Shown here: positions 34,719 through 37,320 of the stretch, piece by piece | Position numbering within the stretch: the first letter of the stretch is position 1 | Layout: every line of letters starts with the position of its first letter | Source of the DNA: Nitrospinales bacterium | GTDB taxonomy: Bacteria > Nitrospinota_A > UBA7883 > JACRGQ01 | NCBI GenBank assembly: GCA_023248535.1 | Contig: JAHFEJ010000012.1 | Location: 1 to 53,658, forward strand | Reading direction: 5' to 3' | Length of the DNA: 53,658 nucleotides | The notes under the pieces: generated by a model | The model's database searches: none | Seen by the model: the letters and a program-made list of their open reading frames with translations, nothing else | Told to the model about the DNA's origin: nothing | Made by a program: the position numbers and the translations under genes

Positions 34719-34724
34719 GCGTGC

Positions 34725-34752
34725 TTGAATTCAATCCATTTTGCCCTATAAT
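34725..34752 (+). promoter_or_regulatory. Strong sigma-70 promoter for the response regulator
   Basis: TTGAAT (34725-34730) is followed after 16 bp by a perfect TATAAT (34747-34752). Transcription would begin about 7 nt later, at or next to the ATG at 34760, predicting a leaderless mRNA. An in-frame ATG at 34751 overlaps the -10 and is unlikely to be used. Confidence 0.6.
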
Positions 34753-34759
34753 GAACCGC

Positions 34760-35167
34760 ATGCCGCAAAACATTAAACTTTCGAAAAATGCCCGCCCGGT
34801 TCTTGTTGTCGACGATGAATATTACGTCACACGGGGTATTTCGTACCTGCTGCAGGACGAAGGGTTGTCTTGCATAACCAAAAACGATTCCGATGGCGTG
34901 ATCGAACTGGTCGCCAAAGAACGGCCCCAGGTGATCGTGCTGGACATTAACATCCCGAAAGTCGATGGTTTTCAGGTACTCAAAGAGGTCCGCCAACGTA
35001 AGGATTTCGATGATGTGGTTATCATGATCCTCACCGCGCGCGGCCACGAGGAGGACATTCAGGCCGGGCTTGCCCTGGGAGCGAATGAATATATCCTGAA
35101 ACCGTTCAATCCGCTGGAACTGCGCGACAAAATAAAAGCGGTCTACGCGGCAAAACAGGGCCACTGA
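34760..35167 (+). CDS. Single-domain response regulator (CheY-like)
   Basis: This 135-residue receiver has the acidic pair DD, a phospho-acceptor Asp in VLDINIPKVDG, the Thr in LTARG and the Lys in LKPFNP. No output domain follows, so it acts by binding a partner. I chose the ATG at 34760 because the strong promoter just upstream would place the transcript start there; a GTG at 34721 would read through the promoter. It ends 18 bp from the convergent diguanylate cyclase gene. No kinase gene is adjacent. Confidence 0.85.
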   Translation: MPQNIKLSKNARPVLVVDDEYYVTRGISYLLQDEGLSCITKNDSDGVIELVAKERPQVIVLDINIPKVDGFQVLKEVRQRKDFDDVVIMILTARGHEEDIQAGLALGANEYILKPFNPLELRDKIKAVYAAKQGH

Positions 35168-35185: not shown

Positions 35186-36568
35186 CTATTTTTTCTGGTA
35201 GACCGTGACGCGGTTGCGCCCGCCGGATTTTGACTGATAGAGCGCCTGATCGGCCAGTTCGATGATATCCGCCACGCTATCGGCGGCAATGCAATCGTCA
35301 GGATACGATGCCACCCCGATACTGACGGTAAGCCTCTTCAACGGTTGGGATTCCGCGCCCGGAAAGTTGAGTTCTTCAACCGCTTCGCGCATGCGTTCGG
35401 CAAGCGCAGCCGCCTGGGCTTTGCTGGTCTTTGGCAGAATGACGGCGAACTCTTCGCCGCCGTACCGGGCGACGACATCGGTTTCACGCATCGCCGTCCG
35501 CATGATCCTTGCGATTTCGATCAGCACCTCGTTCCCCTTCAGGTGGCCATGTTTATCGTTGAATTTCTTGAAATGATCCACATCGATCATGCAAAGCCCA
35601 AGCTGTTCTCCATGCCGTTCGGCGCGTTTAAGCTCCGTCAAAAGCGACCGCGCGAAATAGCGGTGGTTGTATACCTTCGTCAGTTCGTCCGTTACGGCCA
35701 TCTCCTCCGCCCGTTCCAACATCAGCACTTTTTCCACCGCGCTGGCCGCAAGGGCGCCCAACAGCCCCATCAGGTTCAGTTCGCGGTCGGCAAACCTGCG
35801 CGGGCGGAAATCGTCAACGTACAGGATGCCGACGATTCTCCCCTCGGCCCTTAGCGGCACGGCCACCAGCGAGCGGAATCCCTGATCCTTGAGGTGCGAC
35901 GTATCGAACTTGGGATTATTGTCCAGCTCTTCGATAACGGTCGGCTGGTTGTTCGAAAGAATGTGGGCGGTCAGCCCGCCGGGCCGCACCGTCCAAACGT
36001 GAAGGGGGGGCTTTTCACCGCGAAAGCCCCGTAACGCCGCCATCCGCATCTCCCCCCTCTCTTCGTCGAAGAGGGCGGCGGAGCCGGCCGCCATTTCCAA
36101 CAGGCTCATCGCGGCCTCGACAATAAGTTGGAGGGCATGTTCCGATTTTTCCGCGTTCGCCAGCAAAATACTGATGTCGTAAAGCAACATTTGCTCTTCG
36201 AGCGTCCGCTTGGCGGCCCGTTCCCGCGCTTCACGCTCTTCCACCATGCGCCAGAGCAGATTGGCGGTCATTCCTTTCACCACTTCGGTTTCGGGGCGGT
36301 GGAGGTCTTTTAGAAAATCCTCCACCTCCGGATTGCCGGTGGCGTCCACAACAATATCGATGCGGGGGAGTTTGAAAAGTTCCTTAAAGTCGGGGGTGGT
36401 GGCAATACCGATCTGCCGGGCCCATTTGATTCCGGGTGAAGACTGGTTGCGGCTTGAGACGCCCACGATTTCTATGTCGGGGTCTTCGGCGAACATCTTG
36501 GCCAGCGGCAGCCCCCCTTTACCCATCCCGATGATGGCGACTTTAAAGCGGCCCGCCGGTTCCCTCAT
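35186..36568 (-). CDS. Rossmann-GAF-GGDEF diguanylate cyclase
   Basis: This 460-residue cytoplasmic protein has an unusual order. Residues 8 to about 105 form a dehydrogenase-type nucleotide-binding Rossmann fold (IIGMGKGG, GxGxxG at 14-19; then VSSR at beta 2 and VVDATGNPEV). A coiled coil (about 106-128) leads to a GAF domain (about 130-285), then a GGDEF domain (about 290-460). The active site is GGEEF (370-374) and the inhibitory I-site is RETD (361-364), so it should make c-di-GMP with product inhibition. The Rossmann part may sense NAD(P)(H) or another nucleotide. Its start overlaps the stop of the diheme cytochrome gene (ATGA). Confidence 0.88.
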   Translation of the reverse strand: MREPAGRFKVAIIGMGKGGLPLAKMFAEDPDIEIVGVSSRNQSSPGIKWARQIGIATTPDFKELFKLPRIDIVVDATGNPEVEDFLKDLHRPETEVVKGMTANLLWRMVEEREARERAAKRTLEEQMLLYDISILLANAEKSEHALQLIVEAAMSLLEMAAGSAALFDEERGEMRMAALRGFRGEKPPLHVWTVRPGGLTAHILSNNQPTVIEELDNNPKFDTSHLKDQGFRSLVAVPLRAEGRIVGILYVDDFRPRRFADRELNLMGLLGALAASAVEKVLMLERAEEMAVTDELTKVYNHRYFARSLLTELKRAERHGEQLGLCMIDVDHFKKFNDKHGHLKGNEVLIEIARIMRTAMRETDVVARYGGEEFAVILPKTSKAQAAALAERMREAVEELNFPGAESQPLKRLTVSIGVASYPDDCIAADSVADIIELADQALYQSKSGGRNRVTVYQKK

Positions 36569-36888
36569 GGTTCCTTTACACCAACCCAGTGCGTACCGCG
36601 CACCTCATCCCCCATCCAGGTTACCGAATAGGTGTGGCAGGCGCGGCATTCCGTCGCATGGGCATTTGCTGAACCGGCATATGATTCTTGCGCCTTGGGA
36701 ATATGCACCGCCGCGTCAAACGATTGATGCGTGTGACAACTCATGCAATATTTGATGATGACCGCGTTTGATTCCTTGCCCGCGGTTCCTGAACCGAAAG
36801 CGCGCTCCACATCGTTGGTGGCGCATGCCGCGGAAAATAACAGCAACCCCACTGCCATGACGGCTGAAATACCGGACCGATTCCCCAT
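36565..36888 (-). CDS. Small diheme c-type cytochrome lipoprotein
   Basis: This is a 107-residue protein. An N-terminal export signal (residues 1-21) ends in a lipobox-like SAAC (Cys22). Two heme-attachment motifs follow: CMSCH (48-52) and CRACH (81-85). The product should be a lipid-anchored periplasmic diheme cytochrome. Start ATG 36888 has AGGA directly upstream; a longer frame to 37029 would bury the signal sequence. It is translationally coupled to the diguanylate cyclase gene. No oxidase or reductase lies alongside, so a sensory or electron-buffering role is possible. Confidence 0.8.
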   Translation of the reverse strand: MGNRSGISAVMAVGLLLFSAACATNDVERAFGSGTAGKESNAVIIKYCMSCHTHQSFDAAVHIPKAQESYAGSANAHATECRACHTYSVTWMGDEVRGTHWVGVKEP

Positions 36889-37320
36889 TCCTGCTAATCT
36901 CCGAAAAAATTGCGGCGCCCAAGCTGCGATATCCGCCCATCCCCACGCGAAAGCTGTCCACCCCACTTTGCGGGGGAACGGAAATCCAATGGAGAGCATT
37001 CTACTACCAAATGCTAAAATGCGAGCCATCTTTTGCGGTTCGGCCCCCGTTCGCTATCGTCACGATGCGAAAACCCGGACGAATCAGGCCTCCCCCATTT
37101 CCAAACCCCTCGACACCCCCTTATTATACCATTTTAGTCCCATTAGAATAATATTACATTCACCTTATTAATGTCAATTTTATATTTTTTAATTCGGCCT
37201 GTTCCCGGGAACCTCTAATGCAAGTTACTACGGCAAAAGGCGTCCAACGGTTATGGCACCGCTTTTGCTCCTTACCTGCCACAGAGAGTATTTCTGACGG
37301 TCTTTGAGGAGGAGTTAGTT
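36889..37320. other. 432-bp divergent intergenic region upstream of flagellar operon
   Basis: This gap separates the cytochrome gene (minus) from fliO (plus). Its right part holds a sigma-54 promoter at 37254-37269 and an inverted repeat, GCAAAAGGCG (37233-37242) with CGCTTTTGC (37260-37268), overlapping the -12 element. Positions about 37125-37190 are very AT-rich and could bind an activator or bend. No open frame with coding character and no recognisable riboswitch was found. Confidence 0.6.
37254..37269 (+). promoter_or_regulatory. Sigma-54 (RpoN) promoter for the fliO operon
   Basis: TGGCACCGCTTTTGCT matches the TGGCAC-N5-TTGCT consensus at every key position, with GG and GC exactly 12 bp apart (-24/-12). 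Transcription would start near 37281, about 40 nt before the fliO start and its GAGGAGGAG Shine-Dalgarno (37306-37314). Sigma-54 control of flagellar export genes, driven by an FlrC/FleQ-type activator, is known in polar flagellates; the activator is not in this window. Confidence 0.75.

Follow-up and report, generated by a model that had tools for sequence, protein, structure and literature searches.

In the window, by which we mean the whole 53,658-nucleotide stretch of Nitrospinales DNA analysed here, a gene for a predicted diheme lipoprotein cytochrome overlaps a gene for a diguanylate cyclase headed by a dehydrogenase-like Rossmann domain. Comparison across genomes indicates that the two genes most likely form an operon of long standing, inherited vertically within a single bacterial class; the analysis established the anatomy, fold, motifs, topology and class-wide linkage of the pair. 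The diguanylate cyclase of the window has an undescribed input, and the gene paired with it throughout the class is an unusual one.

The cyclase gene (minus strand, 35186-36568) encodes a soluble protein of 460 aa. From the N-terminal end it consists of a Rossmann domain (residues 8-100; 36269-36547) with a GMGKGG loop and SSR at the end of beta 2, a helical linker (residues 101-140; 36149-36268) with an invariant Trp106 and a modelled helix at residues 99-120, a GAF domain (residues 143-279; 35732-36142; Pfam E 6e-18) and a GGDEF domain (residues 291-453; 35210-35698; Pfam E 2.5e-50), all on the minus strand. The GGDEF domain is full-length and contains the intact GG(D/E)EF of a diguanylate cyclase in the form GGEEF (residues 370-374; 35447-35461, minus strand), as do all 16 orthologues. 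Five residues ahead of it lies the I-site RETD (residues 361-364; 35477-35488, minus strand), and this RxxD site, characteristic of feedback inhibition, was likewise found in 16/16 orthologues. Pfam and the alignment of the 16 orthologues agree with the first-pass annotation on the Rossmann domain, GAF, GGEEF and RETD and on their order. The best PDB matches of the cyclase by phmmer were GGDEF proteins, and the orthologue in G010 is 61% identical to it. No hydrophobic stretch resembling a membrane span was found in any of the 16 orthologues. A gene for a single-domain response regulator (34721-35167) is convergent with the cyclase gene and is kept there only within the genus.

The Rossmann fold, originally called from the letters of the window, held up in both profile and structure searches. 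Pfam GFO_IDH_MocA matched residues 8-87 with an E-value of 5.7e-6 (27.5 bits, cut-off 24), and DapB_N matched as well (26 bits, cut-off 25.6); GFO_IDH_MocA was matched by all 16 orthologues at E<=0.01. A profile built from the N-terminal domains of the cyclases matched dehydrogenases in the PDB. The AlphaFold model of the domain, for which the window sequence and one relative were the AlphaFold2 input, showed an alternating strand-helix fold with a pLDDT of 83.8 and a pTM of 0.74. Foldseek searches with this model matched NAD(P)-binding domains (best E about 1e-5, TM 0.65-0.69); these were coenzyme-binding domains from enzymes such as acetaldehyde dehydrogenase, GenD2 (with NAD) and biliverdin reductase (with NADP+). 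The cyclase thus has a beta-alpha-beta Rossmann fold with a glycine-rich loop. Pfam detected no C-terminal catalytic domain of the Gfo/Idh/MocA type after it, GAF and GGDEF standing there instead. Because no catalytic dehydrogenase domain follows, the Rossmann part is an isolated binding domain.

The cytochrome gene (minus strand, 36565-36888) encodes a protein of 107 aa, predicted to be a lipoprotein. Its N terminus has a signal peptide and a lipobox (SAAC or SAAC-like; 36823-36834, minus strand) ending in Cys22, which, like the two CXXCH motifs, is invariant in the 15 aligned members. The two heme motifs follow on the same strand, CMSCH (residues 48-52; 36733-36747) and CRACH (residues 81-85; 36634-36648), so that the earlier description as a lipoprotein-type diheme cytochrome is upheld together with the position and strand of both genes. 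His54 and His62, invariant residues after the first motif, are candidate distal (second) heme ligands. Genes for cytochrome c maturation were found in the same genome. No specific Pfam or NCBIfam family was found for the protein, all profile matches falling below the cut-off. The ATGA overlap of the cytochrome stop and the cyclase start is located at 36565-36568 on the minus strand, as first reported, and a ribosome-binding-like stretch for the cyclase, AAAGGAA (36571-36577, minus strand), is found within the cytochrome gene, 2 nt upstream of the ATG. A sigma-70-like promoter, TTGACA-18-TATTAT (37148-37177, minus strand), matches the consensus at 11 of 12 positions upstream of the cytochrome gene; this call is a consensus match only.

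Of the 24 genomes of the phylum that were searched, 17 have the Rossmann cyclase and 21 have the cytochrome. Within the class, the cytochrome gene was directly upstream of the cyclase gene on the same strand in each of the 16 cyclase-bearing genomes, which span families f1 to f6, and the two genes overlapped or were separated by no more than about 5 nt in each of the 16 pairs (the junction in G016 lies on contig C170). The pairing proposed for the window therefore withstood the survey of relatives. In the cyclase tree the sequences group by family, so the ancestor of the class most likely already had the pair. G023, which lies outside the class, has the cytochrome and cyclase genes on separate contigs, and its cytochrome gene precedes an unrelated gene. 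The gene upstream of the pair is not constant: three genomes of the genus have fliO there and the fourth has DUF4403, several families have rlmN, and others have groEL or selB, these neighbours being named partly by Pfam and partly by plain resemblance.

The pair had also been described as standing head-to-head with a sigma-54 flagellar operon. This is true at the locus, where the divergent fliO flagellar export operon has a perfect sigma-54-type site outside the pair (37254-37269, plus strand), but fliO is a genus-level neighbour with a promoter of its own, found head-to-head with the pair in three of the four genomes of this genus only. The flagellar link is one of neighbourhood only, because the cytochrome gene has a sigma-70-like promoter and the fliO operon its own sigma-54 site; a functional tie between pair and operon was rejected as evidence on the same grounds.

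As judged from topology and gene content, the coupling of cytochrome and cyclase shown here is one of co-expression, not of signal transfer. The inner membrane would separate the two proteins, and the cyclase, having no span in that membrane, cannot reach the cytochrome except by way of a third protein; direct contact was rejected because no membrane span was found in any of the 16 cyclases. No conserved membrane gene that might bridge the pair was found across the class, and none at the window's own locus. The first-pass proposal, read as a circuit in which the periplasmic cytochrome reports to the cyclase, is not supported in that form: the cyclase is soluble in all 16 orthologues, a conserved bridging membrane gene is lacking, and the cytochrome occurs alone in other phyla. 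The reading that we prefer, tentatively and at slightly less than an even chance, is a soluble cyclase gated by cytosolic NADP(H) and made from one operon in step with a diheme electron-transfer lipoprotein of the envelope; its ligand, the direction of its response and any functional tie between the two proteins are what we infer. The Rossmann domain would bind a pyridine dinucleotide, most likely NADP(H) rather than NAD(H), and nucleotide occupancy or redox form would be passed through the helical linker and the GAF domain to the GGEEF active site of a product-inhibited soluble diguanylate cyclase. The lipoprotein, with two probably bis-His hemes, would handle electrons outside the inner membrane. 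The overlapping genes would hold cytochrome and cyclase in fixed proportion, so that the cell's capacity for electron transfer in the envelope would be tied to a readout, in the form of c-di-GMP, of the reducing power of the cytosol.

The candidate ligand was assessed from an alignment of the Rossmann domains. In the window cyclase the end of beta 2 lacks the acidic residue of the NAD type and has Ser39 followed by Arg40; a non-acidic position 39 followed by Arg40 was found in all 14 class members aligned, whereas nine of 11 relatives outside the class retained Asp or Glu at position 39; L148, for instance, has ADI where the window cyclase has SSR. The glycine loop of the class cyclases is G-x-G-x-x-(A/G), and in most class members outside the window's family it is GxGxxA, not GxGxxG. 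Loss of the acid at beta 2 together with a basic residue, and GxGxxA, are textbook marks of NADP(H) rather than NAD(H) binding. With the NAD-type acid lost and the arginine invariant, NADP(H) is the better guess for the ligand. The input had been given as possibly NAD(P)(H); of this suggestion NADP(H) appears to fit the residues, and NAD(H) fits less well. The coincidence of the residue switch with the gene pairing amounts to a single data point, because one ancestral event explains all 14 sequences. The Rossmann domain may instead bind another nucleotide or none: it could sense CoA or a metabolite or serve only as a dimer scaffold, with the signal perhaps entering through the GAF domain. We consider this rather unlikely, since the best profile and structural matches of the domain are NAD(P)-dependent dehydrogenases, and the invariance of G14 and G16 and the fixed Arg40 in the class argue against a ligand other than a pyridine nucleotide. 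On its side are the many ligands bound by Rossmann folds, the CoA_binding scores of some members, a distant relative (L155) that has lost the glycine loop and kept its GGDEF domain, and the binding of cyclic nucleotides or GDP by GAF domains of cyclases (PMC8846402).

The Rossmann profile was matched at E<=1e-12, and down to 6e-35, in 10 of 168 genomes outside the phylum. The proteins found were Rossmann-sigma-54 activator-HTH (L148, L149, L151), Rossmann-HisKA-HATPase-REC (L150, L158), Rossmann-PAS-kinase-REC-GGDEF (L154), Rossmann-GGDEF-HD (L152, L153), a GGDEF protein with a GAF-like stretch (L155), a triple GAF-GGDEF protein (L156) and an MCP-like fragment (L159). This shared signalling module has no Pfam family of its own. 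Among those examined outside the class, no Rossmann signalling protein had a cytochrome beside it. Since these examples have varied outputs and no cytochrome, the Rossmann domain is best regarded as an input used in signalling at large, and its link to a cytochrome as peculiar to the class. Because it also heads sigma-54 activators, histidine kinases, GGDEF-HD proteins and an MCP-like protein, the domain cannot be called an input dedicated to c-di-GMP or to cytochromes. Rossmann domains had been called rare on GGDEF proteins, and they do look uncommon there, with one per genome here, but the module is shared with other outputs. In two other genomes a Rossmann-headed GGDEF gene is directly upstream of genes resembling rpsO and pnp (L021, 5977-7296; L155, 3314-4585), a gene context that one would not expect the two to have in common.

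The cytochrome also occurs without the cyclase. In three genomes of one family that lack the cyclase (G004, G006 and G009), a soluble HATPase protein of 249-255 aa is encoded 3' of the cytochrome gene on the same strand, after gaps of about 96, 310 and 16 nt, respectively (L141, 5815-6564; L142, 2880-3629; L143, 4145-4912). The HATPase core is intact, and Pfam recognised no H-box in these partners. From this gene order, another cytosolic signalling-type gene replaces the absent cyclase behind the cytochrome in that family. That the partner is a common paralogue was rejected: in full length, and with an N terminus of its own, the gene was seen only next to the cytochrome gene of these three genomes, although a related HATPase core occurs elsewhere in larger kinases. 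G014 has the cytochrome with neither cyclase nor HATPase partner, and G005, G007 and G008 have no cytochrome. In G014, G015, G016 and G019 a COX1-like membrane protein with DUF1858 is encoded either convergently to the cyclase or adjacent to the cytochrome (examples: L144, 5468-6451; L010, 475-1446), the calls in G016 and G019 being made by sequence resemblance. Lone relatives of the cytochrome in other phyla (L182, L183, L185, L187, L188, L189) have no signalling partner and stand beside unrelated genes resembling obg and recJ. These lone cytochromes, together with that of G014 and the unlinked genes of G023, count against the NADP(H)-gated reading, as does the separation of the two proteins by the inner membrane. 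The relatives in other phyla, and the exclusion of direct contact by membrane topology, favour the view that the cytochrome is an ordinary electron carrier of the envelope that shares a transcript, but no circuit, with the cyclase. We regard this as unlikely, because the linkage, translational overlap included, has outlived several rearrangements of the surrounding genes within the class, and because a second cytosolic signalling-type gene is found behind the cytochrome where the cyclase is missing in the same family. It is very unlikely that sensing is really done by the cytochrome, with an unlinked membrane protein such as the COX1-like/DUF1858 protein relaying its signal to the cyclase or HATPase: the cytochrome's exchange of partner between two unrelated cytosolic signalling proteins and the COX1-like genes near cyclase or cytochrome in the four genomes named above would suit such a route, but no membrane gene at the locus is conserved in the class and none is present in the window.

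If the NADP(H)-gated reading is true, c-di-GMP would integrate cytosolic reducing power with envelope electron transfer. Heme, flavin and disulfide sensors are known to turn redox or energy state into c-di-GMP decisions; with a Rossmann coenzyme-binding input the NAD(P)(H) pool would be read directly. In the open literature we found no diguanylate cyclase or kinase described with a Rossmann or NAD-binding input, and in a 2022 review of the sensory inputs to c-di-GMP signalling the words "Rossmann" and "cytochrome" do not occur (PMC8846402). A wider proposal, which we hold to be rather doubtful, is that a diguanylate cyclase gated by pyridine nucleotide, whose input is an undescribed Rossmann sensory module of wide occurrence, was retuned within a single class from NAD(H) to NADP(H) and became locked in an operon with the cytochrome, so that c-di-GMP integrates reducing power in the cytosol with electron transfer in the envelope. 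A class-wide gene pair, one soluble cyclase and a clear mutable residue, Arg40, make these ideas cheap to test, and the wider module could suggest candidate ligands for many of the sigma-54 activators and kinases without a known input.

Compared with known systems, the window cyclase resembles GAF-GGDEF diguanylate cyclases in having GAF followed by GGDEF with active site and I-site intact, and differs from them by its additional N-terminal Rossmann domain. That domain shares its fold, glycine loop and the D-A-T-G of beta 4 with the NAD-binding domains of Gfo/Idh/MocA proteins, DapB and acetaldehyde dehydrogenases; unlike those, it heads a signalling protein and has no catalytic half, and in the cyclases of this class the acidic beta 2 residue of Gfo/Idh/MocA-type domains is replaced. 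By profile and alignment the same module heads the sigma-54 activators, histidine kinases and GGDEF-HD proteins of other phyla (L148-L154, L158), which have other outputs, mostly Asp or Glu at beta 2, and no cytochrome neighbour. The cytochrome resembles multiheme cytochromes (MtrC/MtrF domain II/IV, cytochrome c3/c7), by weak matches only, in CxxCH with a histidine after it, but has two hemes only and is a predicted lipoprotein. In its way of working, homology being no part of the likeness, the cyclase may be compared with the redox repressor Rex, whose Rossmann domain reads the pyridine-nucleotide state and drives a regulatory output (PMC2883068, PMC8836258). Rex binds DNA and senses NADH/NAD+, whereas the output of the cyclase would be c-di-GMP synthesis and its residues point to NADP(H).
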